Virus record (IMG/VR): IMGVR_UViG_3300030085_001744
Span: 565 to 27,410 of that record
Reading direction: 5' to 3' (one strand)
DNA: 26,846 nucleotides
Source of the DNA: a virus
The notes under the pieces are model-generated. The model ran no database searches. It saw nothing but the letters and a program-made list of their open reading frames with translations, and was not told the origin of the DNA. Below are positions 1,433 to 25,916 of the stretch, piece after piece. Numbering within the stretch: position 1 is the first letter of the stretch; each line of letters begins with the position of its first letter. The translations under genes were made by a program, and so were the position numbers.

Positions 1433-1442
1433 GTTTATCCTC

Positions 1443-3163: not shown

Positions 3164-3816
3164 GATTTTAATACTATGCTTTTCTGTTTTTGTAATACAT
3201 ACCAGTCATATGTTTCAGTAAAAGTTTTATTACCCTGTTTTAAATCTTTCAAAACTATTTCGTCATAACCTTTTAACTCAAATCCTGCTCTTTGAAATAA
3301 ACTTTTATACATTGGATAACCCATGATGCTATAGTGATTCTTCCAATGTTCTAATCCACGTTCACTATTTTTAAGTCTTTCTATACTAGGTTGTGGCATT
3401 TCTACGTATAACCAACCACCAACTTTAAGCATTTTATTTAATTGATAGATTGTATAAAAAGGAAATGGAGAATGTTCTAGTACATGTCGCATCCACACTG
3501 CATCAAATTCTTCATTGAAACCTGTAAAATTGAAATCTAATTTATGTACCTTGAAACCATCTGCTTCACATTTTTCTACATCTTCCTTATCTAGTGTAAG
3601 ACCTTCAACATTTGTAAAGCCTAGTTCTCTCATTTTTCTCATGGCGTAACCAGCACCACAACCTAAATCTAATATCCTCATATTAGTTCTAAGTAACTGT
3701 AAAAAGCCTGGTAACATGGCATCAGTAACTTGTGATGTTAAAACACTATCAGGTTCGTGATATACCTCACTTAACAAGTCAGTGTAAAACGCATCAAAGT
3801 CTTTCCATTTATTCAT
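3160..3816 (-). CDS. Class I SAM-dependent methyltransferase
   Basis: This 218-residue protein has a Rossmann-type methyltransferase core: motif I ILDLGCGAGY at residues 48-57 binds S-adenosylmethionine, followed by an acidic residue after EGLTLD, and FDAVWMRHVLEH at about 104-115 corresponds to the motif of Methyltransf_11-type enzymes. A later LKVGGWLYVEMP matches the strand-5 region. The substrate cannot be read from the sequence; such enzymes act on sugars, small molecules, lipids or proteins, and it lacks the NPPY motif of DNA adenine methylases. It begins inside the last 8 nt of the 5' nuclease gene and ends by a 4-nt overlap with the phosphomannomutase-like gene, so the two are probably translationally coupled. 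Sugar methylation fits the neighbours but is a guess. Confidence 0.85.
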   Translation of the reverse strand: MNKWKDFDAFYTDLLSEVYHEPDSVLTSQVTDAMLPGFLQLLRTNMRILDLGCGAGYAMRKMRELGFTNVEGLTLDKEDVEKCEADGFKVHKLDFNFTGFNEEFDAVWMRHVLEHSPFPFYTIYQLNKMLKVGGWLYVEMPQPSIERLKNSERGLEHWKNHYSIMGYPMYKSLFQRAGFELKGYDEIVLKDLKQGNKTFTETYDWYVLQKQKSIVLKS

Positions 3817-4810
3817 GAGGATATGCTCTGTTTAGAATAGCCGCCATTTCATCTGGTGCTTTAGATAGATTTTGTAAGTCCCATTCACCGCACCATTTTA
3901 GAAAGTTGATACCTACACCTGGAACTTTCTTAGGCTTACTTGCATCTGCAATCGTTTGAACAAAGTCTACCTTTAGTTCTGTAGGCTGTGCATGTAAGTC
4001 AATCAAAATTTTATTACGTTCATAATCTTCACGTACTGTATGTTCATCACCGTTATGGTCTGTCCATCGTTGTAGCATAAAGTTATTCCAGTTGAAGCCA
4101 CCTGTTGCTTGGTCTTCAAATGCTTCAATCATACCAATTTTATTTTTAGTGCCTTTCTTTCTAGCACCTGGATATGCTGAAAAGATGTTATCACTTGTAT
4201 CACCACGAATACATTTCTCAAACAATAACCACTGAGGGTCTGGAGCAGGCATAACTTCTTTTGTCTTTTTATCTTTCATAGGTGTCATGTTCTTATCATC
4301 TTTAAAGAAACCATCTTTAGTAATGATACGATTTTGTACACCATCATAAATCTTTACGTTGTCTTGAATTAGTTGTAGATAATCACTGTCACTTGAAATA
4401 ACAATGTGTTCATCATTAGGATGTGATTCAATAAACATAGCAATCATATCATCTGCTTCTGCTTGTTTATTGTGTAGCAATGTTACATTAGTTTTCTTAT
4501 CTAAAAATTCAACCATGCTATCATAAGCATCAAACATGATTTGATTTTCTTCTTGTTCTCTAACTGATAATTGCTCACGTGCATCTTTACGATTGCGTTT
4601 GTAAGGCTCGTAGAAATCTTTACGCCATGAACGACCTTCTAAACAAAATACTGCATGGTCGGCATTGAATTTATTATAACACATTTTCACACTATTCATC
4701 ATAATATGAAAAGCCATGCCAATACGCATATCGACATTTGAGCCACGCATTGCTACGTGTTTTGCTCTGTGATACATGTTGAAACTATCAACAAGGATGA
4801 AAGTAGCCAT
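3809..4810 (-). CDS. rnh: 5'-3' exonuclease / flap nuclease, T4 RNase H type
   Basis: This 333-residue protein resembles T4 RNase H and the FEN-1/5'-nuclease superfamily, which removes RNA primers and 5' flaps during lagging-strand synthesis. Metal-binding carboxylates are visible in order: Asp8 (LVDSFN), Glu118-Ala-Asp120-Asp121, Asp141-Ser-Asp143 (ISSDSDYLQL), and Asp204/Asp207 in RGDTSDNI, which begins the helix-hairpin-helix region. A second GVGINF turn occurs near the C-terminus. The lysine-rich loop after residue 160 fits the helical arch area. T4 RNase H is about 305 residues, so the size is right. The gene has its own near-consensus promoter with an extended -10 immediately upstream and an AGAGG ribosome site. 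It works with the polymerase and clamp encoded further upstream. Confidence 0.92.
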   Translation of the reverse strand: MATFILVDSFNMYHRAKHVAMRGSNVDMRIGMAFHIMMNSVKMCYNKFNADHAVFCLEGRSWRKDFYEPYKRNRKDAREQLSVREQEENQIMFDAYDSMVEFLDKKTNVTLLHNKQAEADDMIAMFIESHPNDEHIVISSDSDYLQLIQDNVKIYDGVQNRIITKDGFFKDDKNMTPMKDKKTKEVMPAPDPQWLLFEKCIRGDTSDNIFSAYPGARKKGTKNKIGMIEAFEDQATGGFNWNNFMLQRWTDHNGDEHTVREDYERNKILIDLHAQPTELKVDFVQTIADASKPKKVPGVGINFLKWCGEWDLQNLSKAPDEMAAILNRAYPHE

Positions 4811-4839
4811 TATTACCTCTTTAAGTTATATACGTACTT

Positions 4840-4868
4840 AATGTAACACAGTTTACTGGAAATGTCAA
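4840..4868 (-). promoter_or_regulatory. Sigma70-type promoter upstream of the 5' nuclease gene
   Basis: On the minus strand TTGACA is followed after 17 nt by TACATT, preceded by TG at the extended -10 position (TGTTACATT). The -35 overlaps the stop of the 154-residue gene. A 6-bp inverted repeat TTAAGT/ACTTAA (4821-4841) lies right after the -10, so the transcript could start with a small hairpin. Confidence 0.7.
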
Positions 4869-5329
4869 GAGTATTCAGCGGTATCGTCACCAGTTTTTAA
4901 TCGCTGAACAATAAGTCCTTCTTTACTTTTAGTATCAACACTTTTTGCAACGCCTTCTTCGTCTTCAAGACCTTCCATTACAATGTTTTTACATAAGTCA
5001 TTGAACCAATTGTCTACGATTTTATCTGGCTCTGTGCCTTCGTATCCTGAGTTCGCAAGATATTCAACAAATTCTTCATTGAAATCTAATTCAAAGAAAC
5101 CCGAACCAGGCTTATCTTTGTCAAGTTCCATCTTAAGAACTTTGACCCAAGGTTCGCCTTTGATAGTTGCTAGTTTTTTATCATGTTCGATTTTAGATAT
5201 GTGTCCGTATTTAAAGTCTAGTTCGACCATACGTTTTTGCATAGCTTTATCGTCACTGATTTTTCTAGCATCTGCTCTTTCGTTTTCTTCACTTGTCTTG
5301 AACCATGTACTAGGTTTTAAAATATCCAT
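4865..5329 (-). CDS. Hypothetical protein, 154 aa
   Basis: I do not recognise this family. The protein is small, acidic and soluble: MDILKPSTWFKTSEEN at the start, a Lys/Asp-rich helical region to about residue 55, a central strand-rich part (WVKVLKMELD, GSGFFELDF), then helices around WFNDLCKNIVMEGLEDEEG. There is no cysteine cluster, signal peptide or membrane segment. The start has AAAGGA at good spacing. It is the last gene before the promoter of the 5' nuclease, 10 nt after the rhodanese gene. Its position beside replication genes would fit an accessory replication or transcription protein, but no motif supports a particular one. Confidence 0.75.
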   Translation of the reverse strand: MDILKPSTWFKTSEENERADARKISDDKAMQKRMVELDFKYGHISKIEHDKKLATIKGEPWVKVLKMELDKDKPGSGFFELDFNEEFVEYLANSGYEGTEPDKIVDNWFNDLCKNIVMEGLEDEEGVAKSVDTKSKEGLIVQRLKTGDDTAEYS

Positions 5330-5339
5330 TTTATTCCTT

Positions 5340-5687
5340 TCAGTTCACTTTTAATTCTGGCACTGCTTCTACTAGTTTATCAATGCCACCTTCGATATAA
5401 ATCATATTTTTATATCCATTATTTTTAATGTACTTTGTTACTTGTTCTGCTCTTGTACCATCTTGGCAAAGCATTAAACAAATAATATAAGTAGGAGCCA
5501 TGTCTATCTGGTCAGGTATCTCGTACATTGAAATATTAAATGTACCTTTAACAATACCTTTCTCAGTTCGTTCTTCTGGCTCTCGTATATCAACAAGCAT
5601 ATATTCTTGTTTATCATACCATTCATTTACGAATTCTTCTACTGTAATAGATAGACTATCATCGTTTGTTTTATAAAACTCACTCAT
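5340..5687 (-). CDS. Single-domain rhodanese-like protein
   Basis: This 115-residue protein is a complete single rhodanese domain of the kind that carries sulfur as a cysteine persulfide. The family landmarks are present: LVDIREPEE near residues 31-39, the strand before the active loop (YIICLML), and the catalytic loop CQDGTR at 74-79, which matches C-x-x-G-x-R with Cys74 as nucleophile. The tail YIEGGIDKLVEAVPEL corresponds to the usual GG-[IL]-x-x-W region, with Lys in place of Trp. The gene follows metK by 3 nt, its AGGATG ribosome site overlapping the metK stop. Sulfur transfer to a thiolated base, iron-sulfur upkeep for QueE, or methionine-related sulfur chemistry are all possible; the sequence does not distinguish them. 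Confidence 0.88.
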   Translation of the reverse strand: MSEFYKTNDDSLSITVEEFVNEWYDKQEYMLVDIREPEERTEKGIVKGTFNISMYEIPDQIDMAPTYIICLMLCQDGTRAEQVTKYIKNNGYKNMIYIEGGIDKLVEAVPELKVN

Positions 5688-5690
5688 TGT

Positions 5691-6839
5691 CTAACATCCT
5701 TCATTAATCTCTTTTTCCCATTCATCAGCATCAGCGAATTTTCGTTCCCAACCGATTTGTTCCCATGGAACATTCTTATCACCAAAGTGACCAAATATAC
5801 AGTTCTCACTATAGTTATGGAAATCAAACAGTTTAAATCTATCAATAATTCCTTTAGGTGTTAAGTCGATATTATCTCTAACAAACTTGTGAATTGAACG
5901 ATTATGTCCATTACTATCAATGTAAATACTTGTAGGTTCTTTTACACCAATAGCATATGACAACTGTACATTGCACCAATCTGCCATATCATCTGCTACA
6001 ATATTCTTTGCTAACCATCTTGCCATGTAAGCCGCTGACCTATCTACTTTGGTAGGATCTTTTCCGCTAAAAGCGCCACCACCGTGAGGAGCAAAACCAC
6101 CATAGGTATCCACGATAATTTTGCGTCCGGTGAGTCCTGTGTCACCATCAGGGCCACCAATAAGAAACTTACCAGTAGGGTTAAAATGATATACAGTATC
6201 TTTGTCAACTAAATCTCCTAACACTTCTTCTACTGCCGTGTTGATAGGCATTCTAATACTATGTTCCATACCTTCTGTATGTTGACATGATACAACTACC
6301 TGGTCTACACGTTTTACTTTACCGCCTTCATACTGAACACTGACTTGTGATTTAGAGTCAGGCTGTATGTATTTATAGCCTTCATCTACACGTAGACTTT
6401 TTAGTTTCTTTAGAATTTCATGTGAATAATGTATGGGTGCAGGCATCATGCTTGGAGTATCATTAGATGCATATCCAAACATAATACCTTGGTCACCCGC
6501 CCCAAAGTCATCAGTACCTAAACCGATGTCACCACTTTGTTTATGAATTTTTTGTACAACTTCTAAGTCTTTCCAGTGAAAGCCAGATTGTTCATATCCA
6601 ATTTCTTTAACTTTATCTCTAACGATTTGCTCTACTTCTTCTGTAGAAACGTTAAAGTTTTTTACTTCGCCCGCCAACGTTACATAGTTGGTAGTTACAA
6701 GTGTCTCTATCGCTACACGTGTAGTTTCATCACCGTTCTTAAGTCCGGCATCAACTAGTGCATCACTAATCTGATCCGCTACTTTATCTGGGTGACCGTC
6801 ACTAACACTTTCGCTAGTAAAAATATAATCGTTCATCAT
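5691..6839 (-). CDS. metK: S-adenosylmethionine synthetase
   Basis: This full-length MetK (382 residues; E. coli has 384) makes S-adenosylmethionine from ATP and methionine in the cytoplasm. Family signatures are intact: TSESVSDGHPDK at the start with His16, GAGDQGIMFGYA near residue 120, HFNPTGKFLIGGPDGDTGLTGRK near 220, and the phosphate-binding GGGAFSGKDPTKVDRS near 255. The C-terminal half (SYAIGVKEPTS) is also normal, so the enzyme is probably active. Two adjacent ATGs are possible starts; an AAGGATAAGGAT ribosome site precedes both. The gene is cotranscribed with folE and queE. QueE is a radical SAM enzyme and the phage also carries a methyltransferase, a methylase-like protein and a second radical SAM protein, so a SAM supply makes sense. 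A complete metK is unusual in a phage. Confidence 0.96.
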   Translation of the reverse strand: MMNDYIFTSESVSDGHPDKVADQISDALVDAGLKNGDETTRVAIETLVTTNYVTLAGEVKNFNVSTEEVEQIVRDKVKEIGYEQSGFHWKDLEVVQKIHKQSGDIGLGTDDFGAGDQGIMFGYASNDTPSMMPAPIHYSHEILKKLKSLRVDEGYKYIQPDSKSQVSVQYEGGKVKRVDQVVVSCQHTEGMEHSIRMPINTAVEEVLGDLVDKDTVYHFNPTGKFLIGGPDGDTGLTGRKIIVDTYGGFAPHGGGAFSGKDPTKVDRSAAYMARWLAKNIVADDMADWCNVQLSYAIGVKEPTSIYIDSNGHNRSIHKFVRDNIDLTPKGIIDRFKLFDFHNYSENCIFGHFGDKNVPWEQIGWERKFADADEWEKEINEGC

Positions 6840-6854
6840 AAGTTATCCTTATCC

Positions 6855-6977
6855 TTAATATCCGGCTTCCCGAATTCGTTTTTCTAAATCGTTATGGTTA
6901 ATATCTTTTTTCATAACGTCCTCTAAATGTTCATTTGTATAACGTGATGCAGTTCCATCATCAAGTACCCCAGGCAT
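6855..6977 (-). CDS. Possible small protein, 40 aa, between queE and metK
   Basis: This short frame starts with ATG at 6977-6975 inside the last 17 nt of queE and ends just before metK. The product (MPGVLDDGTASRYTN then a charged helix ending KRIREAGY) is acidic/basic and helical. It fills nearly all of a gap of about 104 nt in a genome where other gaps are shorter, which favours a real gene. The ribosome site is weak (CGGAA). The frame is open further upstream inside queE, but that part encodes an antisense-like hydrophobic string and is a shadow. I do not recognise it. Confidence 0.4.
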   Translation of the reverse strand: MPGVLDDGTASRYTNEHLEDVMKKDINHNDLEKRIREAGY

Positions 6978-7857
6978 TTCCGAAGAGGGATATGTGGAGT
7001 CTTGGCGTGAACCTCCACCCTTTCTCCATGCAAAGTTCTGCCACATCTTTGACTGTGAGATTATATTCCTCACTGCGTCCACCCAAAGGCATAAGATAGA
7101 CAGGTACATCAATATCTTTTTTGATATATTCTTTGACGGCTCTATCAACATCGTTAACATCTGTATCGTCAGATACAACAAATTTAAAATACATGCTACT
7201 ACCAGGAACAGAATAGTAATCGTAAGCAATATCAGGTTTGATAGCAGTGTCCCAAGGTTCTCCAGAAACCGGGAGTTTTGGAGAGCAACTAAATGTTGTC
7301 TTAAATCTTGCTTTGCTTGAGAGATATTCTTTAAACTCCGGGTGTAGACTTTGTGTAGTGTTTGTTTCAAATGTAACATTTTTTAAATCTTGCATCCTTT
7401 CATGTTCGAACAAATCAATATACAAACGTTGCCATGCTAACAAAGGTTCACCGCCAGTCATTATTAAGTGAATGTCTTGACCGTTATCTTGTGTCCACTT
7501 GCCATTAGGTGTAAGAGATAGTAAATGTTCTACTACTTCATCTACCGTAGCTTGTTTATTAAAGTGTTTAAATTCAGGATAGATACTTGCATAAGTATCA
7601 CACCCTGTATGTATAATAGGCAAATCCTCAAACTCCTTTGTAGTTTCATGTACACCATCGTCAATTAGTGCTTTCACTTCATCGTTATACCTATTACCTT
7701 GTTTGTGCTTTTCGTCACGCATTGGTTCACCTCTTGGTAATCCAAAGTTCATACAACGAAAATTACAACCAAATGTACGTAGGAATACACTAGGTACTCC
7801 TACATATTTGCCTTCTCCTTGCACACTATAAAATGCTTCTGAGTATCTCAGCTTCAC
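6961..7857 (-). CDS. queE: 7-carboxy-7-deazaguanine synthase QueE (radical SAM), with insertion in the cluster motif
   Basis: QueE converts 6-carboxytetrahydropterin to 7-carboxy-7-deazaguanine (CDG) using S-adenosylmethionine and a 4Fe-4S cluster. The N-terminus FYSVQGEGKYVGVPSVFLR, the MTGGEPLL segment near residue 134, the PKLP region and the C-terminal PRLHISLFGN are typical of QueE. The first two cluster cysteines are Cys31 and Cys35 (GCNFRC). The third appears to be Cys86 in TGCDTYAS, about 50 residues later, instead of two residues later as in canonical CX3CX2C. The insertion explains the length of 298 residues against about 225 for typical enzymes. The gene overlaps folE by 4 nt, so the two are translationally coupled. 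The product is the likely substrate for modification by the DpdA-like enzyme upstream. Confidence 0.93.
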   Translation of the reverse strand: MKLRYSEAFYSVQGEGKYVGVPSVFLRTFGCNFRCMNFGLPRGEPMRDEKHKQGNRYNDEVKALIDDGVHETTKEFEDLPIIHTGCDTYASIYPEFKHFNKQATVDEVVEHLLSLTPNGKWTQDNGQDIHLIMTGGEPLLAWQRLYIDLFEHERMQDLKNVTFETNTTQSLHPEFKEYLSSKARFKTTFSCSPKLPVSGEPWDTAIKPDIAYDYYSVPGSSMYFKFVVSDDTDVNDVDRAVKEYIKKDIDVPVYLMPLGGRSEEYNLTVKDVAELCMEKGWRFTPRLHISLFGNAWGT

Positions 7858-8534
7858 GCCTTGTGGCCTTTCATACTCAACATTAGATTATAGAATTCTT
7901 GCTTAAGATTAGGATCATCTCTAAACTTACCTAGCATTACCGCAGTAGTCATATCACTGTCATGTTCTTTAACACCTCTATGTGTCATGCAATGATGTTC
8001 AGCTTTGACAACAACTGCAACATTAGGTGTCTTTGCATATTGCACAAGTTTATCTGCAATCTGTGTTGTCATTTCTTCTTGAATCTGCGGACGTTCAGCA
8101 ATGTGATGTACTAGCCTATTAAACTTAGATAGACCAATAACTTCTTCTTCTGGAAAGATACCTACCCAACATTTACCTACAATATTTTGAAGATGATGGG
8201 CACAAGTACTACGAATAGTAATTGGACCTGTTGTATACAAGTTGTTATATCCCATGTTAGGAAAACTTGTTACTCTTGGTTCTGGTACATAACGCCCACC
8301 AAATGTTTCATTTAAAAACATTTTAGCTACACGTTTTGCAGTTTCTTTTGTGTTATGGTCGTGTTCTGTGTCTATAACTAGACTACTTAAAACCCTTTGC
8401 ATTTCGTTCTGTACTTCATTTTGAAGTAGTTCTAACTCACCGGGTTTTACAAACTCTGCTATGTTATCATTGGCATTGAATCTTGCTTTTGCCGTAACGA
8501 TACGTTCTTTGATTATATCGGAAGTCTTTCTCAT
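7854..8534 (-). CDS. folE: GTP cyclohydrolase I
   Basis: FolE converts GTP to 7,8-dihydroneopterin triphosphate, the first step to both folate and 7-deazaguanines. The 226-residue protein has the zinc ligands Cys111, His114 (TCAHHL) and Cys182 (HHCMTHRG), nearly the same positions as Cys110/His113/Cys181 of E. coli FolE. Other conserved parts are HNTKETAKRVAKMF, GIFPEEEVIGLSKFNRLV and a run of helices after it (ERPQIQEEMT). It is a complete type IA enzyme. It is the first gene after a perfect consensus promoter, with AAGGA about 11 nt before the ATG, and shares a 4-nt overlap with queE. This places pteridine synthesis under strong early host-polymerase transcription. The role in base modification rather than folate is inferred from its neighbours. 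Confidence 0.97.
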   Translation of the reverse strand: MRKTSDIIKERIVTAKARFNANDNIAEFVKPGELELLQNEVQNEMQRVLSSLVIDTEHDHNTKETAKRVAKMFLNETFGGRYVPEPRVTSFPNMGYNNLYTTGPITIRSTCAHHLQNIVGKCWVGIFPEEEVIGLSKFNRLVHHIAERPQIQEEMTTQIADKLVQYAKTPNVAVVVKAEHHCMTHRGVKEHDSDMTTAVMLGKFRDDPNLKQEFYNLMLSMKGHKA

Positions 8535-10954: not shown

Positions 10955-12247
10955 TTATGCTACTGCAAAATATAGTACTGAAACAGCCGCAATAGCTAGA
11001 GAACCCATATTAAGTTCGCTATGTCTACCACTAGCCGCTTTAATTACTACATAAGCAATAAAGCCCAATGCAATACCGTATGCGATATTAAATGTCAAAG
11101 GCATCATAATCGCCGCCAATACTGCTGGAGCATATTCACTTACATCTTCCCAATCGATATCTTTAAGATTTCGTAAGAAGTATGTAGCGATAAAGACCAA
11201 TGCAGGAGCAGTTGCATATCCTGGAATGCTTTGTGCCAATGGTGCTAACACCAAACACAATGCAAACAAGATTGCTACGACAACCGCAGTTAGTCCTGTT
11301 TTACCGCCTTCTTTAATACCCGCACCAGACTCAATGTATGATGTAGTATTAGAAGTACCTGCTAATGCACCAATAGTTGTTGCAGTTGAATCAGCAAGTA
11401 AGGCTCTATCGATTCCTTCAACTTCACCTTTTTTATTGACTTTACCTGTTAAGTTGGCAACACTTGTTAGTGTACCAGCAGTATCAAAAAAGTCTACAAA
11501 AAGAAAAGCAAAAGCAACACCAATAAAACCGGCAGTCGCAATTAAACTAAAGTCTAGAGTAAATGCATGTGCTGGACTTGGAATAGAACCAACAACACCA
11601 CTTATTTCTGCAATCCCTGTTATCCAAGCAATAGCACTTACGGCTAAGATACCAATGATGATTGCTCCAGGTACTTTACGTTTATCCAAGATTGCCATGA
11701 TAGCAAATCCTAGACCAGCTAATAATACTGGCCAACTAGAAAGGTCTCCTAGTCCTACAAGAGTAGCTGGATTATCAACCACAACTCCTGCATTCTTCAA
11801 ACCAATAATAGCTAAGAACAAACCAATACCTGCTCCTATACCTAGTTTCATGCCTTTCGGAATACTGTTAATGATGTACTTCCTTGCTGGCGTCATACTT
11901 AAACCAAGAAACACAATACCTGCGATAAACACAGCCGCCAGTGCTTGTTGATAAGTGTAACCCATACCGAAGATAACACCGAATGCAAAAAAGGCATTCA
12001 GTCCCATTCCGGGTGCTAAACCAACGGGCCAGTTAGCCCATAGTCCCATAATTAAAGTACCAATTACTGCCGCAATAATTGTTGCAGTAAATACGGCACC
12101 AAAATCCATGCCAGTACCTTCAGTTGACAATATAGCAGGGTTGACTACCGTGATATATGCCATTGTAAGGAATGTCGCAAGACCGGCCATAACTTCCGTT
12201 CTGACCGTTGTTTTCTTTTTAGACAAACCAAAAAGTTTTTCTAACAT
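10955..12247 (-). CDS. AzgA/GhxP-type purine permease (NCS2/COG2252)
   Basis: This 430-residue membrane protein has about 12-14 hydrophobic segments and belongs to the adenine/guanine/hypoxanthine permease branch of the NCS2 superfamily. Recognisable parts are TEVMAGLATFLTMAYITVVNP at the start, PVGLAPGMGLNAFFAF near residue 74, FLFVDFFDTAGTL near 250, and the signature GTSNTTSYIESGAGI near 296. Length and motifs are complete, so proton-coupled import of a purine base is expected. The start has an AGGAGGAAAA ribosome site in a 31-nt gap after dpdA. It lies between dpdA and the QueD-like/apt genes. Substrate choice among guanine, hypoxanthine, adenine or a 7-deazapurine cannot be decided from the sequence. 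A full purine permease is very unusual in a phage. Confidence 0.93.
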   Translation of the reverse strand: MLEKLFGLSKKKTTVRTEVMAGLATFLTMAYITVVNPAILSTEGTGMDFGAVFTATIIAAVIGTLIMGLWANWPVGLAPGMGLNAFFAFGVIFGMGYTYQQALAAVFIAGIVFLGLSMTPARKYIINSIPKGMKLGIGAGIGLFLAIIGLKNAGVVVDNPATLVGLGDLSSWPVLLAGLGFAIMAILDKRKVPGAIIIGILAVSAIAWITGIAEISGVVGSIPSPAHAFTLDFSLIATAGFIGVAFAFLFVDFFDTAGTLTSVANLTGKVNKKGEVEGIDRALLADSTATTIGALAGTSNTTSYIESGAGIKEGGKTGLTAVVVAILFALCLVLAPLAQSIPGYATAPALVFIATYFLRNLKDIDWEDVSEYAPAVLAAIMMPLTFNIAYGIALGFIAYVVIKAASGRHSELNMGSLAIAAVSVLYFAVA

Positions 12248-12278: not shown

Positions 12279-13823
12279 TTACGCAAAAAGATCCTCTACA
12301 GTATCAGGTGTAGAGTATTCTTTTCTCTTACCTTTAACTGCTTCAACGAATTCTTCTGTTTTTACATTGGCTTCTTCAAACTCCATAAATTCAGGAGTTG
12401 TAGAAATATTTTGAACACGTGATCCTTCACACTTTCTTAAGAATGCTTTGAAATCACTTAACATGTCCATTGGATTATCTGATACAAATAGTTCTTCTAC
12501 AAACTTTGCAAAATACAATACTGTATCAGGAACAACATCACTTAGTACATTTGTTTTGCCTAAACTCATGTTGTGAATATCAATTTTGTCATGTAACATT
12601 TCATATTCATGGTCAAATCTACGCAATGCATCTTGCATACCTCTGATATGATATTCTGTGTTATGTGCTTGAATTAATATATAAGATAGACTATCCCAAC
12701 TTGACTTCGCCTCTTTTTTATTTCTATTCAGCATACCAGGTTGCATGTAGTTGATATCTCGCATGTTTAATCTTGAGCCGATTTCGCCTTCATACATCCA
12801 AGGTTGTGTTGGATTAGAAATGTCCTGACGCCAATTCAGTTTCTTAGTTTTGTAACTCCATGCATTGGCATTCAAGTCAGGATAGTCATATGCTAGTCCT
12901 TTTGATGCAGTTATATAGGGAGACGCCGCATCAAAAGAGATTGTGATATTTGGATTTACATGTTCTCTTAGTTGTCGTTGAATAGCCGTTAGATAACAGC
13001 CCCAAGGGAGAACACTAATGCCTAGAACATGAATCCAAACATCGTCACCTGCTAATAGACCATCATCACGCATTCTGATTAGTCTTCTTAACAAGAGTTC
13101 CGCATCACCGGCATGGTCGCCAGCCATTGCGTAACCTTCAAACGCCCTATCGCCATAGACTTTAGGGTCATTAAACTCTTTAACATTTTGATACCAGTTT
13201 TCGCTTGTTTCCCAATTAGCACCATGAAGTGTATTAAGAAACTTAGTCTTACCTGGTATTCTATTTTCAATGAAAAACTTGTGATTATAAATTGTTTTCT
13301 CTAAACAATCTTTAGGATCTTTTAATCCAGTTCTGTCACGGTACTGAGGGAGATATGCCCATAACGGGATATCTAAGGTCATAGAGTAGTCGCAATATTC
13401 CTCAAGCCAAGTCATAATTCCGCACCGTGTTTTTTGCCAGTCTGCACCGGTCTCAAAGTTACTCCAGTCTAGTTTCCAAGCACCAGAGCCTATCTGATAA
13501 CCACCCGAATCCCCAACAAGTACTGTGTCCTCACGGTTACGATTTACAACCATACCATCGTCAACTTTAGAACCATCTAAGTCTAGATTGGCATGACCTG
13601 CCGAATAAAGTCCATGTGAGTAATAAACATACCCTTTTTCTTTATCTAATATATTTAGTCCTTCTAGCCCATTTTCAAAGCCTTTTGGGATACGTTCTGG
13701 TGGAAACATGTCTGTAACACCTGCATAGTGTTGTGATATTTTTCTTACATAGAAATTAGAAATTGCAGGGAGAAAGACTGCGTACCCACTAGATTTATTA
13801 TTTTTGCTTAGGTCATTAACCAT
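12279..13823 (-). CDS. dpdA: DpdA-type 7-deazaguanine DNA transglycosylase (TGT-like)
   Basis: This 514-residue protein is related to tRNA-guanine transglycosylase. DpdA enzymes exchange guanine in DNA for a 7-deazaguanine base. The substrate-pocket motif is VLVGDSGGYQIGSG with Asp105, matching the DSGGFQ of TGT, and the probable nucleophile is Asp298 in ISFDAASPY. Between them come TLDIPLW and HVLGISVLPWG, which correspond to the barrel strands around the active site. I see no CxCxxC...H zinc site, which bacterial TGTs have. The size exceeds TGT (about 375) and fits a DpdA. It directly follows the clamp gene and has a strong AGGAGGA ribosome site. Genes for CDG synthesis lie in this and the next operon. 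The alternative is an archaeosine-type tRNA enzyme, but phage context and the surrounding genes favour DNA. Confidence 0.88.
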   Translation of the reverse strand: MVNDLSKNNKSSGYAVFLPAISNFYVRKISQHYAGVTDMFPPERIPKGFENGLEGLNILDKEKGYVYYSHGLYSAGHANLDLDGSKVDDGMVVNRNREDTVLVGDSGGYQIGSGAWKLDWSNFETGADWQKTRCGIMTWLEEYCDYSMTLDIPLWAYLPQYRDRTGLKDPKDCLEKTIYNHKFFIENRIPGKTKFLNTLHGANWETSENWYQNVKEFNDPKVYGDRAFEGYAMAGDHAGDAELLLRRLIRMRDDGLLAGDDVWIHVLGISVLPWGCYLTAIQRQLREHVNPNITISFDAASPYITASKGLAYDYPDLNANAWSYKTKKLNWRQDISNPTQPWMYEGEIGSRLNMRDINYMQPGMLNRNKKEAKSSWDSLSYILIQAHNTEYHIRGMQDALRRFDHEYEMLHDKIDIHNMSLGKTNVLSDVVPDTVLYFAKFVEELFVSDNPMDMLSDFKAFLRKCEGSRVQNISTTPEFMEFEEANVKTEEFVEAVKGKRKEYSTPDTVEDLFA

Positions 13824-19123: not shown

Positions 19124-20983
19124 TTATTTTTGATTTAACTCGTAAATTCTTTGTGCTAAAGCATCAATTTTTTCTATATCAGAGTCTTTTAAATCAGACA
19201 TTTTCTTTGGATCTGACTTTAGCTTGATATTCTTACCACCAACTGTGATAGTATCACCAGCTTTTTTACCTGCTTTAGCCGCCTTGTCTAGTTCTTTGTA
19301 GAATTCATTGTACTCTGACATATTGATTTTAGCGGATCTATTTACTAATTCATTTGCATAATCATCTGAGTTGAATATCTTTTTCTTTGGTAAGCCTAGA
19401 TTAGGGTTTGCTTTGTTTAATTCATCTTTAGTAAAGTTTACACCGGCTTTAGCCGCTCCTGCTAAACCTTTACCAACTATTTTAGCACCCATTTTCATTG
19501 CTTTGCCTTTATCTGATTTTGAGAATTTATCATATTTCTTTTTCAGTTCCACGCCTTTTTTGACACCTTTACCGATTGCATCAGCGCCTTTTTTGACACC
19601 TTTACCGATTGCACCAGCTACTTTTAATAATAATGGATTTTCAACAACTAATTTGCCTTCTTTAATAGAACCCATGGCAAAGTCTGCAATCTTAAGCATA
19701 CCAGCTTTTGTTTTTAGCATGTTGTCAATTTTTTCTTTGTTAGCATCATTAACTTTATCGTAAACTTGTGTAACAGCCGATGCAGTAAATAAGTCTACTT
19801 TCATCTGACCATCATCAAATTTAACAGGCATGTTTTGTTTGTCTGCTACAATTTTCTTTAAAGTATCCATTGCGCCTTCACCAACAATAACTGGACCAGC
19901 TTCTGCCAAGTGTGCATCGATACCAGCAGTTGATTTCATCTTCCAATGTGCCGCCGCTTTTTTAGCCGCTTCGTAAGATGATTTAGCATGACATTCATGT
20001 TTGCCTTTATCAGCATGTACGCAAATGTATGGCTTATCTTCTGCTTCTGATACTTCACGCATTTCGTTTGTTGTTTCCATACTTGCTACGCCATCTTTTT
20101 GCATACCTTGTTCTGTGAAATCAACATTCATTTTAACCATTTTTGAAATTTCTTTTGCGAAACCTGAATCTGTATAGATAGTCCAAGGACCGTCGTGTGT
20201 TACATCTACTTTTCTGTAACCATCATCTTCGTCACCATGTAAAAATCCACCTGGCTCAAAAGGGTTTTCAACTTCAATCTTTGATACTTTAACAGACTTT
20301 GGATTTTCGCCTTCTTTATCCCAAATACTATCACCTGCTAATTGAACTTCTTTTGCAGGGATTGACATAGTTGTTTCTGGTTCTTCTTTGATACCCATTT
20401 TCTTAGCTTCATCTTCTAGTTCAGCTTTTCTACGCATAACTTCTTTTTTAAGTTTTTCGTCTTTGTGAGTATTTGGATCCATTTGAATATCTTGAAGTGC
20501 TTTCTTTTTCGCTTGGTAATCTTCTTTGTCCTTGAGAGATGTCGATGAAGATTCTTCTACGCTTTCTTCTGCTTCTTCTGGTTTGTTTGCCATCACTGCA
20601 TCATAGTCTGCCATTTCTTGTTCATCTGGCATTTCTTCTGCACCTGGTGTTTCCATATCCATTGCTGGTTCTTCTGGAGCCATGTCCATATCACTTGGTG
20701 CTTCTGCATCCATATCAGGATTATCCATTGCAGGAACTTCTGTTGCAGGTTGACCTAATTCTAATGTGTGCATTCTAGCCATTAAACTATCTGACATACG
20801 TTCATATGCTTCATATGATTTATTGTGTTGGCTAGAAAATGTTAGTGCTAAATCATGCACCGCATCACGGGCATTTTTACCACCTTCTAATTCTGTTTTG
20901 AGTTGTTCTGTAGAACGATTTAAATAATCTTCAAACTCATCATTTGAGATTACAAAGTTCTCTATAAGTTGTGTAAGTTTCAT
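19124..20983 (-). CDS. Large modular protein of unknown function with candidate capsid-targeting N-terminus
   Basis: This 619-residue protein starts MKLTQLIENF, a short Lys-Leu segment with L-I-E that resembles a T4 capsid-targeting peptide and prohead-protease site. After an N-terminal helical region comes an acidic Met/Pro/Glu-rich tract (about 80-148), a Lys/Glu helix, a beta-rich part (WTIYTDSGF), and a small Cys/His-containing domain at about 315-360 (KPYICVHADKG ... SYEAAKKAA ... STAGIDAHLAE). A module at about 371-438 (NMPVKFDDG ... KAGMLKIADF) also occurs in the gene at the right edge. Then follow Gly/Lys/Ala repeats (AIGKGVKKG twice). I cannot assign a function. Low complexity plus the likely targeting signal suggests a prohead core or internal head protein. 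Its ATG overlaps the previous stop by 4 nt. Confidence 0.7.
   Translation of the reverse strand: MKLTQLIENFVISNDEFEDYLNRSTEQLKTELEGGKNARDAVHDLALTFSSQHNKSYEAYERMSDSLMARMHTLELGQPATEVPAMDNPDMDAEAPSDMDMAPEEPAMDMETPGAEEMPDEQEMADYDAVMANKPEEAEESVEESSSTSLKDKEDYQAKKKALQDIQMDPNTHKDEKLKKEVMRRKAELEDEAKKMGIKEEPETTMSIPAKEVQLAGDSIWDKEGENPKSVKVSKIEVENPFEPGGFLHGDEDDGYRKVDVTHDGPWTIYTDSGFAKEISKMVKMNVDFTEQGMQKDGVASMETTNEMREVSEAEDKPYICVHADKGKHECHAKSSYEAAKKAAAHWKMKSTAGIDAHLAEAGPVIVGEGAMDTLKKIVADKQNMPVKFDDGQMKVDLFTASAVTQVYDKVNDANKEKIDNMLKTKAGMLKIADFAMGSIKEGKLVVENPLLLKVAGAIGKGVKKGADAIGKGVKKGVELKKKYDKFSKSDKGKAMKMGAKIVGKGLAGAAKAGVNFTKDELNKANPNLGLPKKKIFNSDDYANELVNRSAKINMSEYNEFYKELDKAAKAGKKAGDTITVGGKNIKLKSDPKKMSDLKDSDIEKIDALAQRIYELNQK
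19552..19617. repeat. 33-bp tandem repeat, two copies, inside the 619-residue gene
   Basis: Two adjacent 33-bp units (19552-19584 and 19585-19617) differ by one base and encode the repeated AIGKGVKKG segment (roughly residues 456-477). The in-frame length keeps the reading frame. This is a recent duplication in a Gly/Lys-rich region. Confidence 0.9.
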
Positions 20984-21216
20984 GTTGCATCTCTCTTTAT
21001 CATAGGACTTTTAACAGGTTTGTTATATACAAGATTACCTACATCTGAACTATAACCCATCTTATATTCCTTTTGTTTCTTTTTCTTAGGCGTAATATAT
21101 CCCATTGGATCAACTGCTTTTCTGGCATCTTTAGCCTTAGTTCCAGGCGTCATTGGAAATGACACACTCGCAAAACTACCAGCAAAATTTTCACCTAATA
21201 TATCACGTATTTTCAT
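20980..21216 (-). CDS. Small basic protein, 78 aa, possible internal head protein
   Basis: This 78-residue protein begins MKIRDILGENFAGSF and ends in a Lys-rich, Pro-containing tail (TPKKKKQKEY, KSPMIKRDAT). The N-terminal MKIRDILGE|N resembles the targeting peptides of T4 internal proteins, which are cleaved after L/I-x-E. Charge and size fit such proteins, but I do not recognise a family. The start is the ATG at 21216; an in-frame TTG five codons upstream belongs to GATAAATA and is less likely. There is no clear ribosome site. It overlaps the 619-residue gene by 4 nt, so the two are coupled. Confidence 0.65.
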   Translation of the reverse strand: MKIRDILGENFAGSFASVSFPMTPGTKAKDARKAVDPMGYITPKKKKQKEYKMGYSSDVGNLVYNKPVKSPMIKRDAT

Positions 21217-21221
21217 ATTAC

Positions 21222-21229
21222 TATTTATC
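21222..21229 (-). promoter_or_regulatory. Possible late-type promoter element
   Basis: GATAAATA on the minus strand has one mismatch to the T4 late core TATAAATA and sits in the 27-nt gap just upstream of the 78-residue gene. An identical octamer occurs at 395-402, and a related CTAAATAATAT lies upstream of dpdA. The start point would be almost at the ATG, so the leader would be very short. This is weak evidence from short AT-rich matches. Confidence 0.3.
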
Positions 21230-21243
21230 AAATAAATTCGTTT

Positions 21244-22566
21244 TTATATATTTACAAGTTCATCAAAATGAGGGAAATGTTCAGCAAAGGATATTTTACG
21301 TCTATCTTCTAGCATTTTAAATTGAAATTCAGCAGATTTCTTAGTATTATCTGGTACTTTACTCTCTACTAATGCCTTTATAGTAAGCAATGTTGAAACA
21401 TATTTTTGTTTATTTACAAACTTTCCTGGCATGTTTTTAAAGTACTCTATTTGTTCGTCTATTTTATCAGCATGTTTTGGATCCAATGCCGATACTGCTA
21501 AATGTTCTGGTTTATCTACCCAGTTTTGATGCATTATAATATCTTTGTCAAACTCAAATTTATTAATCTTATCATTCAAATGTACTAAAAAGTCTTTGAA
21601 ATAAGGTAGACTTAAGCTATTATGGGCACAACCAAATCCTAATATAAGATTATCTATTTCTTTTGCTTGTTTGAAGAATAGATTTAAGTTATCATCCCAT
21701 TTATTATAATCTAGTCCCCACCTAATTAATTCACTTTTACGACCTAATGCCTCACCTGATAATTGCATTTCATATCTGATGTTTGGAGTTCTCTTTACAA
21801 GTTCAATAAACTTATCAAACTTATGCTTAGGAAAATTAAGATTAGTTGTAACAGTTATAACTACAATTTGATCCTTTCTTTTTGTGTCATTGATGTTAAC
21901 CATAAAGTTTTCTATAAATCTATACATATGGTCTGTGAAGAATGGTTCACCACCGAGTAAACTAAAGTTAACATGATGCTTATCTTTTAATGCTTTTAAC
22001 CAATATTCATTTAATATAACTAATAACTTATCAAACATAGCATCATCTGTATCTGGAAATCTTTTACCAATTTCTTTTTGCCATCTTGTACTAGAACCTG
22101 CCCAACAGTATGCACATGCCATATTACATTTATTTGTAAGTTCTACTTCGATAAACTTAAAATTATCTAAAGCCATCATATCTTTGTGAAACTGTATTCT
22201 TCTCTTAGGGTGAGATTTTGATTTAACATATTGTTTATGTAAATGGTAGTCATAGTTCTTCATGTATTCAGTTCTTACACTATTACCACCTGCTTGTTCT
22301 GTTTTCCAACATTGTTCACAATCTTTGTTATGTGTGCCACCGCTTAAGTCATATTTTCTTTGTTGTAATATAGGGTGGTTGAATAAAAATTCTTCGGTTA
22401 ACGTGTCATAGTTAAATGTAAGTTGTTTTATTTGTTCGTCAGTGTATTCAGTTTTACAACACCACTTGACAGTTCTTTGAGGTAAGGATATAACAATGTC
22501 GTTCCAAGTTTTGAAACACATTGTATTATGTAAATTATGTAAGTTTGGATTTAGTTCTACTATCAT
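21244..22566 (-). CDS. Radical SAM protein with N-terminal cysteine-rich region
   Basis: This 440-residue protein has a canonical cluster motif CNMACAYC (Cys147, Cys151, Cys154) and a following LGGEPFF at about 204-210, the SAM-binding GGE. N-terminal cysteines (CC at 36-37; CEQC at 83-86) could bind an auxiliary cluster. The layout resembles phage proteins annotated as twitch-domain radical SAM enzymes, in which a cysteine-rich N-terminus precedes the barrel; I recall this type from marine T4-like phages but cannot confirm it here. The substrate is unknown; related enzymes modify peptides, proteins or nucleotides. It starts at an ATG that overlaps the stop of the 1117-residue gene by 4 nt and is followed by the 78-residue gene. 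Placement among possible capsid proteins raises the chance of a peptide or protein target. Confidence 0.85.
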   Translation of the reverse strand: MIVELNPNLHNLHNTMCFKTWNDIVISLPQRTVKWCCKTEYTDEQIKQLTFNYDTLTEEFLFNHPILQQRKYDLSGGTHNKDCEQCWKTEQAGGNSVRTEYMKNYDYHLHKQYVKSKSHPKRRIQFHKDMMALDNFKFIEVELTNKCNMACAYCWAGSSTRWQKEIGKRFPDTDDAMFDKLLVILNEYWLKALKDKHHVNFSLLGGEPFFTDHMYRFIENFMVNINDTKRKDQIVVITVTTNLNFPKHKFDKFIELVKRTPNIRYEMQLSGEALGRKSELIRWGLDYNKWDDNLNLFFKQAKEIDNLILGFGCAHNSLSLPYFKDFLVHLNDKINKFEFDKDIIMHQNWVDKPEHLAVSALDPKHADKIDEQIEYFKNMPGKFVNKQKYVSTLLTIKALVESKVPDNTKKSAEFQFKMLEDRRKISFAEHFPHFDELVNI

Positions 22567-25500
22567 TTTTTCTTTGTACGCAGTAATTTCTTAGGAAACC
22601 CATCTTTGTTTACATCATTGCCAAACTTTTTCGCTTGTTTAACAATCTCATTAGGTCCTACGTCAACTGTGGTATTTATGCCTGGTACAACACGACCAAC
22701 TCCACCAGTCTCATTTACTGTTTTTGAAAAAACTTTTTTGATAGCATTAACTGTATTGCTTGTAGTTGTAGTATGATGTTTAATTGCTATCCCACCAGCT
22801 GATTGCCATGCATTAACGTTCTTACCAAAATCATCAATTAGTAAGTTAGGCGAACCGTCTGGCTTCTTTGCATATTTTGATTTATTGTGGTCAATAATAA
22901 CTTTCTCTGGTTTGAAAAAACCTAGATGTTTTCTAACCCATTCACGTTTACCTGGATCAACATTAGGATCATTGGCAAGAGGTGAACTTAAAATTCTGTA
23001 CTTACCTTTTACTGCTTTAATTGTCTGTAGTAGTTCTTTATAACCAGACAATGTTGGTAAGTCTTCCCAAAAGTTTGGTGTATCAACAATCTTTTTTAGT
23101 GCTTTAGGTATATCTCTTTTTGATATGTCTCTATATGATTTAACACCAACTAATCTAGCCCATTCATTAAAGAAATCAACTAACACTCCGTCCATATCTA
23201 CATAAACGTCTGGTGTAGTTTCTTCTGCTTCTGACATTGCTCCCATATAATCAGGTATCTTTGTTTTAACCCATGGTCCTCTGTGCATAAATCTTGCACT
23301 CATCATCACGTTTGTACCAAATAATTCTTCTGGTGACATTATCATAACTTGATATTGTCTTTTCTCATTATCAACACCTACTACTTCTACTTCCATTTCA
23401 TCATACTTCTTACCTTTGTAAGTAATACCATGACCTGTCATAAATCTAGCAACTGCTTCAATTACAATACTTTCTTGTACTGGAACTTTCTTTAGTAGTT
23501 CTTCTTTATCTAGTTTATACCCCGATTTCATCCACTTGTCTTGTAAATCATTTAGCATCTTACCTAACTGAGGTCCTGCTCTATATCCCATAGCAAGTAA
23601 ATCTTTTCCATTGACTGGAAACTCTGGTGCTTCAAACTTGACCATTGCATTGTAAACATCTTTCTTATCATGCATGTTTGCCCATGCAAGTAGATGTGCT
23701 TTATCAATACCTTTAACTACCAAGTCTTGTGCTTTCTTAATATCGATATTATCATTCTTGTGCATGATTAAGAAATCTAACATATTCTTTTCTTCGTTAC
23801 TCATTTTCCATTCTGATGCAATGTCACTACTATCAAGTAGTTTTGCTAAAGCAATAATAGGTCCTGCTGAGTTAACAACATTAGCTGGATTAATATTATC
23901 AAGACCAATAACCTTTGCAACACCTGTTTTGACCATCCAAGTTAATGCTTCTTCGGCATTTGCACTAATTAAAAGTTTTGACATTTCTTGCCAAATTCTT
24001 TCAACTGATATTTGTCTTAGCCCACCAGCATTATCACTGATTGCTTTAATTGTGTTTTCATCCCATTTAGGACTATCTAGTTTTGCTTGGAATCTAAAGT
24101 ATCTTAAGATACGTAAGAAGTCTTCTTTAATTCTTTCTGAAGGATCACCTACAAACTTTGAAACTTTATCTTGTAAGTCATCCATGCCACCATTGTAATC
24201 ATAAATCTTACCATCAATATCCATTGACATTGCATTATATGTTAAGTCTCTACGTTTCGCATCTTCTTCCCATGAACGAACAAATTCAACATCTGCCCTT
24301 CTACCATCAGTTTCTTTATCTGCACGTAAAGTTGTAATCTCAAATGGTTCTTTGTCGATTATTGCAGTTAGTGTTCCGTGTTCTAAACCTGTAGGCTTAT
24401 GTTTGATGCCTGCTTTATCAAGCATAGTCATCATTTCAGTTGGTGTTGCATCTGTGGCAAAGTCAATATCTTTTGGTGTTTTGCCTAACGCAATGTCTCT
24501 TACTGCACCACCTACAATTCGTACTTCATGTTGATTATCTTTAAACACTTTATCTAATTTACGAATAGCAGGAGTAATTATTGATTTAATATTTAATGCT
24601 TCTTCATTTATACTTTCTGTTTTCTTTTTGCCTGCACAATGAGCCTTTTGTGAAAAGCCTTTTGGGTTTGAGCAATTAATACTTTTCTTATACTTTGCAC
24701 TCCACTTTTCAAATATATCACCTTCAAATAGTTCATTGCCGTATAGATTTAAATATTCAGCTTCAAGTTCACGCCAGTTGATTTTGTTGTTTGTTTGCAT
24801 TGCCAACATCATTGCATAATAACCAAGTGAGTGTCTAATTTTACCACCAGTCTCTTTATACTTTCTTTTAAGTATTTTATGCATCATCTGTGCCATATTG
24901 ATATATGCTTTTTTATGTATCAAATGGCCTGCCTTACGAGCAATTACACCGAACGGTGTTTCTTCATTTACAACAGATTTTAGTTCATCTGGTAATAATG
25001 CGATAGCTTGTTTTCTTAAATTCTGATTGCCCTTTGTCATAACTCTCAACAAGTCTGCCTTTTCAGCATGATATACTTTTGCAAACTTAGGATCGTTTTG
25101 TCCTATGTCTTTACCGTTACTGATTAAATCTGCATACTTGATTGTTTGTGCTTCTGCACTAACACCTGCTAGTTTGTCTCTGTCGATTGCTTTACGTGTT
25201 TTTCTATTACCATCTTCTGGCTTACTTACATCTGTAAGTTCAACAACTAGTTTAGCAATCTTAGGACCAAACTCTCTTGTTATATCCATTGGAGTAGTAT
25301 TTGTATCTTCAACTGTATCATGTAATAAAGCGGCCGCTTGTTGTTCTATGGTGCCGCCTGCTTGTTTTACAATGTTTCTAACTTCATCTAAATGAACATA
25401 ATAAGGATCACCAGTATACTTTCGCTTATGGTCTTTATGTGCCTCTTGAGCAAACTGTTCTGCTTTTGTTATTACGTCCATTTCTTCATTCTCTGTGTAT

Positions 25501-25916
25501 ATGTCTTTAAAGTATACACGAGGATATTTTAATGTCAATGATAATAATTCATTTCCGTCTGCATTTGCACGTAAAATTGAAACTTTGTGTCCACTATTAA
25601 GAGCCGCTAACCATCTGTGATGACCATCGATAATATAACTGTCGCTACTTGCTAATAATGGTTTAGGGTTTATGCCCTCACCCTTTTCTTTATTTCTTTG
25701 TAATTGCTTTTCTACACCTTGGTCAGAAAATTCTTTCTGCATAGGCTTTAAATCTTTTGCATCTACTATTTGTGGTCTTAGTGTTATGCCGTTATCTTTT
25801 AGATATTTCTTGTAATCTTCGTAATCATCTGATTTAACCTGAGGCATTTTGTCTCTTGTAATACCCATAGTATCACTAGCTTTTGGTTTATCTATTTTGA
25901 ATTCATCCAATCGCAT
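22563..25916 (-). CDS. Four-domain fusion: ParB-like, RelA/SpoT-type HD, CCA/poly(A) nucleotidyltransferase, HAD 5'-nucleotidase
   Basis: This 1117-residue protein joins several modules. Residues about 80-125 carry DGHHRWLAAL, a ParB/Srx-like fold. Residues about 150-315 look like a MESH1/SpoT (p)ppGpp hydrolase HD domain (YVHLDEV, AALLHDTVEDT with His199-Asp200, then IKYADLISN). Residues about 320-432 are an unassigned helical part ending in INCSNPKGFSQKAHC. Residues about 445-650 are a class II nucleotidyltransferase: GGAVRD (469-474), DIDFAT (483-488), RRDLTYNAM (555-563), EDFLRILRYFRFQAKL, as in CCA-adding enzymes or poly(A) polymerases. Residues about 902-1060 are a HAD nucleotidase (VYVDMDGVLVDF, LSSPL, LIDDF). 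Linkers carry SEAE and SINEE strings. The N-terminus MRLDEF is a possible capsid-targeting peptide (L-D-E). The frame has no interruption, so it is a true fusion or a polyprotein. It precedes the radical SAM gene with a 4-nt overlap. Confidence 0.85.
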   Translation of the reverse strand: MRLDEFKIDKPKASDTMGITRDKMPQVKSDDYEDYKKYLKDNGITLRPQIVDAKDLKPMQKEFSDQGVEKQLQRNKEKGEGINPKPLLASSDSYIIDGHHRWLAALNSGHKVSILRANADGNELLSLTLKYPRVYFKDIYTENEEMDVITKAEQFAQEAHKDHKRKYTGDPYYVHLDEVRNIVKQAGGTIEQQAAALLHDTVEDTNTTPMDITREFGPKIAKLVVELTDVSKPEDGNRKTRKAIDRDKLAGVSAEAQTIKYADLISNGKDIGQNDPKFAKVYHAEKADLLRVMTKGNQNLRKQAIALLPDELKSVVNEETPFGVIARKAGHLIHKKAYINMAQMMHKILKRKYKETGGKIRHSLGYYAMMLAMQTNNKINWRELEAEYLNLYGNELFEGDIFEKWSAKYKKSINCSNPKGFSQKAHCAGKKKTESINEEALNIKSIITPAIRKLDKVFKDNQHEVRIVGGAVRDIALGKTPKDIDFATDATPTEMMTMLDKAGIKHKPTGLEHGTLTAIIDKEPFEITTLRADKETDGRRADVEFVRSWEEDAKRRDLTYNAMSMDIDGKIYDYNGGMDDLQDKVSKFVGDPSERIKEDFLRILRYFRFQAKLDSPKWDENTIKAISDNAGGLRQISVERIWQEMSKLLISANAEEALTWMVKTGVAKVIGLDNINPANVVNSAGPIIALAKLLDSSDIASEWKMSNEEKNMLDFLIMHKNDNIDIKKAQDLVVKGIDKAHLLAWANMHDKKDVYNAMVKFEAPEFPVNGKDLLAMGYRAGPQLGKMLNDLQDKWMKSGYKLDKEELLKKVPVQESIVIEAVARFMTGHGITYKGKKYDEMEVEVVGVDNEKRQYQVMIMSPEELFGTNVMMSARFMHRGPWVKTKIPDYMGAMSEAEETTPDVYVDMDGVLVDFFNEWARLVGVKSYRDISKRDIPKALKKIVDTPNFWEDLPTLSGYKELLQTIKAVKGKYRILSSPLANDPNVDPGKREWVRKHLGFFKPEKVIIDHNKSKYAKKPDGSPNLLIDDFGKNVNAWQSAGGIAIKHHTTTTSNTVNAIKKVFSKTVNETGGVGRVVPGINTTVDVGPNEIVKQAKKFGNDVNKDGFPKKLLRTKKK

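Follow-up and report, generated by a model that had tools for sequence, protein, structure and literature searches.

What is the product of a phage gene that joins an alarmone hydrolase-like domain, a tRNA nucleotidyltransferase and a nucleotidase in one chain: a single enzyme, or several proteins made together? The question is raised by a minus-strand open reading frame at 22563..25916 (-) in a 26,846-nucleotide stretch of viral DNA (positions 565 to 27,410 of IMG/VR virus record IMGVR_UViG_3300030085_001744), referred to here as the window, to which all coordinates refer unless another locus is named. A first-pass annotation made from the DNA letters alone had read the frame as a fusion of a SpoT-type HD domain, a CCA/poly(A) nucleotidyltransferase and a HAD nucleotidase with a ParB-like module, and had imagined a protein that resets (p)ppGpp, repairs or tails tRNA 3' ends and trims nucleotides in one delivered package. 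Our analysis of domain identities, motifs, conserved junctions, module exchange, a protease gene and a promoter motif indicates that the frame probably encodes a polyprotein expressed late and carried as capsid cargo by a T4-like marine phage, and not one multifunctional enzyme. No head genes were seen in the record that holds the window, an IMG/VR fragment of 27 kb, and the evidence on protease and capsid comes from a relative, G001, the 342,607-base contig of locus L003.

Reading frame and module order

The frame starts with ATG and encodes 1117 amino acids followed by a stop, exactly as the first-pass annotation had placed it, and it is not a chance opening, since 1117 open codons have a probability of about 2e-41 at the local base composition. 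Pfam profiles match above their curated cut-offs for HD_4 (residues 152-237, 2.4e-15), PolyA_pol (466-585, 1.5e-33), PolyA_pol_RNAbd (619-670, 4e-11) and NT5C (904-1045, 3.2e-8), in agreement with the three enzymatic domains first proposed. The full order is a ParB-like module, an HD module of the small alarmone hydrolase (SAH) type, a small helical module, a class II CCA nucleotidyltransferase, a module named FMTGHG, an NT5C-type HAD nucleotidase and a C-terminal tail; the modules at residues 319-403, 821-893 and 1070-1117, together with the recurring junctions described below, had been missed in the first reading.

We know of no other protein with such a domain order, and no relative of the polyprotein was found in two scans of 84,980 cellular genomes with few peptide patterns and limited sensitivity, as might be expected if the frame were decaying or had arisen recently by chance fusion. 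That explanation, already at odds with the length of the open frame, is refuted by divergent relatives of 1145-1425 amino acids in several IMG/VR marine viral contigs (L002, L003-L005, L006, L034 and L067), which are full length, retain their catalytic residues and contain no internal stops; the gene is thus not decaying, and we consider a chance or dying fusion extremely improbable.

Junctions between modules

Length changes among the aligned relatives fall at few places, nearly all of which carry a hydrophobic residue, any residue and then glutamate, here written Phi-x-E, where Phi is L, I, V, M or F. In the window protein the first such place is the predicted leader MRLDE (residues 1-5; 25902..25916 (-)), which ends in L-x-E and aligns with the leaders MKLEE, MRLHE, MKLSE, MRLAE and MKKFRNFVTE standing directly before the ParB module in relatives; inside longer proteins SLEE, LVKE or ELDE stands directly before the same module. 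At this position P3 is always L or V and P1 always E, leaders of the MRLDE type conserving L and E, and the middle residue is free (eight different P2 residues). Further predicted cleavage sites are V-N-E at E318 (24963..24971 (-)), exactly where other modules are inserted in relatives; I-N-E at E438 (24603..24611 (-)), which is INE, LNE, LRE or FNE in relatives; V-Q-E at E815 and V-I-E at E820 (23457..23480 (-)), in stretches of low model confidence at 814-821 and 823-830; M-S-E at E896 (23229..23237 (-)), likewise in a low-confidence stretch (874-899), which is MTE, LKE, LLE or LFE in relatives and T-T-E in L003 and L004; and V-N-E at E1069 (22710..22718 (-)), which is VSE or VKE in relatives and whose glutamate is invariant even against the 46%-identical protein of L038. 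Across junctions P1 is always E, P3 is hydrophobic and P2 varies freely, and where a module stands first in a protein, its short N-terminal leader ends in the same Phi-x-E.

For counting, modules were cut from the protein and its neighbours and located in all fetched loci (L numbers), and a Phi-x-E was scored if it lay at most 12 residues upstream of a module start; nine module types were included and HD, which has no site in this lineage, was left out. The pattern preceded the module in 73 of 77 distinct stretches, compared with 17-19% of random windows and 33% of windows that contain an E. When only six junction types were considered, 52 of 54 carried it, against a mean of 24.6 and a maximum of 39 in 2000 shuffles. 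Mere composition as the source of the pattern was rejected, shuffles and E-conditioned windows yielding far fewer. The distant ParB modules of L068 and L069 have no pattern at the module start, and the matches listed for them, eight residues upstream, are probably chance.

Exchange of modules among relatives

Modules in the relatives are reordered, inserted, lost or free-standing, and these changes occur at Phi-x-E sites. L034 has, in place of the helical module, a second ParB-like module (DGNHR) and a segment that may be GNAT-like, a label that is a reading of an insert with no solved relative at the sensitivity of the search. L006 has an additional segment at the E318 junction, and in L038 the HD module is absent and the helical module is N-terminal; the inserts of L006 and L038 are possibly ADP-ribosyltransferase-like, again by reading alone. 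The 1270-residue protein of L106 runs tail, HD (79% identical), TRHF, CCA, helical and TPMG, and combines modules that G001 spreads over three separate genes. Free-standing homologues carry leaders of the same kind: the stand-alone NT5C protein of Methylophilales phage Melnitz has MKSIVEVTSINEE, and the stand-alone HD proteins of L120 and L141 have MKRFKDYVTDLAE and MKRFKDYVTE. Such freedom of order is hard to reconcile with a single enzyme but easy to understand if the product is cut into pieces, which is why the chain is best read as a polyprotein. The idea of one fixed multifunctional enzyme with a meaningful domain order, as first envisaged, was rejected because the order varies among relatives and the junctions resemble prohead protease sites.

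Two further arrangements were noted among the fetched loci. In L091 (4492-6222 (-)) an HD module is followed by a weak ART-PolyVal match (2.6e-5, below the cut-off) with a Phi-x-E between them, in keeping with the cargo pattern seen in the other relatives. L039 encodes, at 2272-7644 (+), a 1790-residue polyprotein that opens with a row of tandem repeats, of which one matches DUF6934; linkers of NELFN/NELLD type follow each of the first three repeats, and TRHF, cytidylyltransferase and ParB modules come later.

Prohead protease and comparison with known systems

In phage T4 the prohead protease gp21 cuts after L/I-x-E, and the leaders of 10-19 residues that it removes target internal proteins into the head (PMC9026906). 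G001 encodes a gp21-type prohead protease (Peptidase_S77, 4.6e-27; PHROG head maturation protease, 1.3e-61) together with a gp23-type capsid protein, which points to a tailed-phage origin, and in this capsid protein an LNE with S after it lies close to the region corresponding to the mature N-terminus of T4 gp23. The predicted polyprotein resembles the T4 internal head proteins IPI-III and Alt in its short leader ending in a gp21-like site, in the gp21-type protease of its relative and in its presumed delivery with DNA; in T4, however, each gene yields a single cargo protein that is cut N-terminally (Alt is also cut C-terminally), whereas here modules stand in tandem with sites between them (PMC9026906). 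In the giant phages phiKZ and SPN3US, a gp21-related protease likewise cuts many packaged and ejected head proteins just behind a short E-ending motif (PMC10052503; PMC7411985), but these cuts mainly remove propeptides, and no report was found for them of several unrelated enzymes released from one chain. Nor was any paper on enzyme arrays released by a prohead protease found in the open-licence literature.

The protein also has much in common with the polyvalent proteins (Iyer et al., 2017; PMC5512222): it is phage-encoded, carries several unrelated enzyme domains in one chain, with at least two biochemically disparate domains as that class is defined, has a ParB-like domain, is rapidly reshuffled and is predicted to be injected with DNA, and Iyer and colleagues themselves likened their proteins to polyproteins. 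In polyvalent proteins, which come from phages and conjugative elements, processing has been attributed to embedded zincin metallopeptidases, an optional feature present in about a third of known members (PMC5512222). The 1117-residue protein contains no HExxH or HExxxH and no peptidase profile; processing by an embedded metallopeptidase was rejected for want of HExxH, and in contrast to the polyvalent case the sites match those expected of a prohead protease that works in trans. The RelA/SpoT domains of polyvalent proteins are synthetases whereas here the domain is a hydrolase, and their pol-beta nucleotidyltransferase was seen in conjugative elements only (PMC5512222). By this comparison the polyprotein may work like the T4 internal proteins while being built like a polyvalent protein, and so combine both.

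A related possibility is that the protein is packaged and injected but stays uncut, like the virion RNA polymerase of N4, and that Phi-x-E is a common linker motif. Polyvalent proteins are large multidomain injected proteins, some of which are packaged uncut (PMC5512222), and the ParB-like domain is of the type seen in them. Composition-matched shuffles of the junctions, on the other hand, give half as many motifs, the leaders of free-standing homologues end in the same motif and module order is not conserved, so that an uncut protein appears unlikely.

Proposed route from prohead to host

If the gene does encode a capsid-cargo polyprotein, its short N-terminal leader would bring it into the prohead core, where the gp21-type protease would cut after Phi-x-E at the module borders and free ParB-HD, helical, CCA, FMTGHG, NT5C and tail pieces. 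These pieces would remain with the DNA and enter the next host, in which the HD enzyme could remove alarmones or the 2'-phosphate of NADPH, the CCA enzyme could restore tRNA 3' ends that host nucleases or defence had shortened, and the nucleotidase could dephosphorylate (d)NMPs. It is from the anatomy of the protein that we infer this succession of leader-directed entry, cutting in the prohead, injection and early action; the substrates are likewise putative.

We further lean, with less assurance, towards a general cargo system in T4-like marine phages, in which each cassette begins just after a Phi-x-E site, cassettes line up in no fixed order following a short capsid-targeting leader, and the capsid-maturing protease cuts up the cargo as well, so that cassettes may be exchanged, gained or set free with function kept intact. 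Were this so, it would explain large 'hypothetical' proteins of seemingly random domain order in abundant ocean phages and make product boundaries predictable from sequence. It would also define a family of injected enzymes at work ahead of all phage gene expression, comprising alarmone hydrolase, tRNA 3'-end repair, nucleotidase, NMN adenylyltransferase-like and ADP-ribosyltransferase-like members, and would be a naturally occurring case of a phage head delivering several enzymes.

Operon, promoter motif and virion context

Late expression is suggested by the motif GATAAATA, which in G001 closely precedes many structural genes, e.g. genes assigned to baseplate, tail tube and neck from their position and resemblance rather than from profiles, and which stands 37 bases ahead of the cytidylyltransferase gene heading the operon and likewise upstream in L006, L034 and L067. 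Its signal lies in position and not in number, since the overall count is 59 against 35 expected. The T4 late motif TATAAATA was uninformative here, GATAAATA being the form that precedes structural genes. Members of the cytidylyltransferase family have been found in purified virions of S-SM1 (PMC3037559), S-SCSM1 (PMC9602691) and S-CREM2 (PMC10665884); the S-SCSM1 protein starts MKSFLQFLKE followed by A, and its flanking genes are also annotated as virion proteins.

Immediately upstream of the polyprotein gene, another operon gene with LYKR and DNLA modules is cut by the contig end (25936..26826 (-)); its complete relative in L004 starts MRLDEVEQ and has TRHF, LYKR and DNLA modules. A second candidate cargo protein of 619 amino acids (19124..20983 (-)) has the leader MKLTQLIE and a DTLK module 58% identical to one in phage Melnitz.

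The idea of a delivered package yielding several processed products thus gains indirect support from the late motif, the virion homologues and the Phi-x-E junctions, and several observations weigh against it. The virion detections concern homologues of a neighbouring gene, not the polyprotein itself, and the authors of the S-CREM2 and S-SCSM1 studies warn of possible carry-over (PMC10665884; PMC9602691). The five-residue leader is shorter than those of T4. Phi-x-E is a short pattern, V at P3 in several sites departs from the strict T4 rule, and 5 of the 14 occurrences in the protein fall within folded domains. Relatedness among homologous sites makes the counts look more significant than they are, the junction types being the separate cases. 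There is no Phi-x-E at the ParB-HD junction, and these two modules are therefore predicted to stay joined. Low-confidence stretches of the whole-protein AF2 model (397-440, 814-830, 874-899 and 1065-1117) include predicted sites, but this is weak support because the model, run from 7 sequences, is poor (pLDDT 56).

The operon, moreover, adjoins a DNA polymerase gene and not head genes, which would also suit an ordinary cytoplasmic multifunctional enzyme that is not packaged and that ties alarmone removal to tRNA repair and nucleotide salvage, and phages commonly encode each of the three enzymes as a separate intracellular protein. Yet the promoter motif is of late type, leader-like N-termini are shared along the operon, homologous operon members are found in virions and the modules shuffle freely, and taken together these make a cytoplasmic enzyme a rather remote prospect.

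Enzymatic modules

The HD module (residues 146-312; 24981..25481 (-)), supported by Pfam HD_4, AF2 and Foldseek, is of the small alarmone hydrolase type by its predicted fold and catalytic set. Modelled alone with an alignment of 42 phage homologues it reached a pLDDT of 96.3, and the best PDB matches in Foldseek were human MESH1 structures (TM 0.84); the whole-protein model is too poor for active sites. The set R165, H175, H199-D200, E203-D204, D263 and N267 is complete and is invariant in the 42 phage homologues gathered here with a DNA pattern for LHDTVEDT; an earlier, deeper search by peptide patterns returned known loci only. The module shares with small alarmone hydrolases such as MESH1 the fold, the full catalytic set and the absence of a synthetase domain, RelA/SpoT profiles matching the hydrolase part only, and differs from them in being embedded in a predicted polyprotein. 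MESH1-type and other SAH enzymes also hydrolyse (p)ppApp and NADPH (PMC7644958; PMC9765508), so (p)ppGpp, the substrate first proposed, stands as one candidate among several and not as the sole one.

The class II CCA nucleotidyltransferase is full length (residues 441-812; 23481..24596 (-)), as shown by its TRNT1 match, and keeps GGAVRD at 469, DxD at 483/485, RRD at 555 and EDxxR at 598. It aligns to human TRNT1 over its whole length (264 bits; 325 bits by profile, against 102 for poly(A) polymerase); NCBIfam PRK13299 gives 221 bits, under its curated equivalog cut-off of 290. Compared with class II CCA-adding enzymes of the TRNT1 type it has every motif, but it is embedded in a longer chain and its specificity for CCA over poly(A) is a prediction. 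Of the two activities originally offered, CCA repair appears to be a better fit than tailing with poly(A). Each of the 10 tRNA genes in G001 already encodes CCA, and a CCA enzyme should therefore be more useful for repair than for maturation; a role in maturing CCA-less phage tRNAs was rejected on the same count. A survey of jumbo phages counts CCA enzymes among the RNA-repair functions that counter host nucleases (PMC7824862).

The NT5C-type HAD nucleotidase (residues 902-1062; 22731..23213 (-)), found by Pfam NT5C and motif positions, keeps HAD motifs I-IV (DMDGVLVDF at 907, SSP at 977, K990 and IDD at 1027) and weakly resembles solved enzymes (human deoxyribonucleotidase, 0.0017); its modelled structure is of low confidence. 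The intact HD, nucleotidyltransferase and HAD motifs reported at first are thus borne out.

ParB-like and small modules

The ParB-like module (residues 6-138; 25503..25901 (-); PHROG 2859) has DGHHRW at 97, and its recognition at first reading was sound: residues 12-132 share 34-39% identity with phage polyvalent, PLxRFG and DarB-like proteins. The resemblance is to proteins annotated PLxRFG or DarB, and in a relative the ParB-like part scores below the Pfam cut-off (22.0 against 23.6 bits). The small helical module (residues 319-403; 24708..24962 (-)) has Phi-x-E at E398 and E403 and recurs at the N-terminus in L038, towards the C-terminus in L106 and within the polyproteins of L046-L062. It is followed by a short Cys-containing segment with KSINCSNPKGFSQKAHCAGKKK (residues 404-432; 24621..24707 (-)), present in L006 and absent from L002-L005. 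The FMTGHG module (residues 821-893; 23238..23456 (-)), recognized from the alignment of relatives and the module search, is mostly beta strands, and the C-terminal tail module (residues 1070-1117; 22566..22709 (-)), which begins GVGRVVPGINTT, also stands first in the L106 polyprotein.

Neighbouring genes and host

A radical SAM gene (21244-22566 (-); PF04055, 3.9e-7) overlaps the polyprotein stop by 4 bases and is therefore probably translationally coupled to it. The sequence MKIRDILGE, whose Met has GATAAATA directly upstream, occurs in a small open reading frame at 20980-21231 that precedes the second cargo candidate. The host is probably an alphaproteobacterium, since the tmRNA of G001 is of alphaproteobacterial type (122.6 bits). 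A permuted alphaproteobacterial tmRNA (RF01849) was also noted in the relative phage genome L024 at 1167-1489 (+), with a manA RNA element at 4861-5059.

Elsewhere in the window, GTP cyclohydrolase I (3e-47) lies beside a QueE-like frame within 6961-8534 (-), and 4 kb away a 514-residue frame (12279-13823 (-)) with no Pfam match is one that we take to be reminiscent of DpdA; these genes possibly serve 7-deazaguanine DNA modification. Two overlapping minus-strand frames, 6855-7379 and 6961-7857 (-), are in different reading frames, and either one of them is real or there is a frameshift. Host-like genes at 461-1432, 5691-6839 and 10955-12247 (-) encode a SbmA/BacA transporter (2.9e-140), a SAM synthetase (9.5e-57) and an NCS2 purine/uracil permease (3.4e-52).
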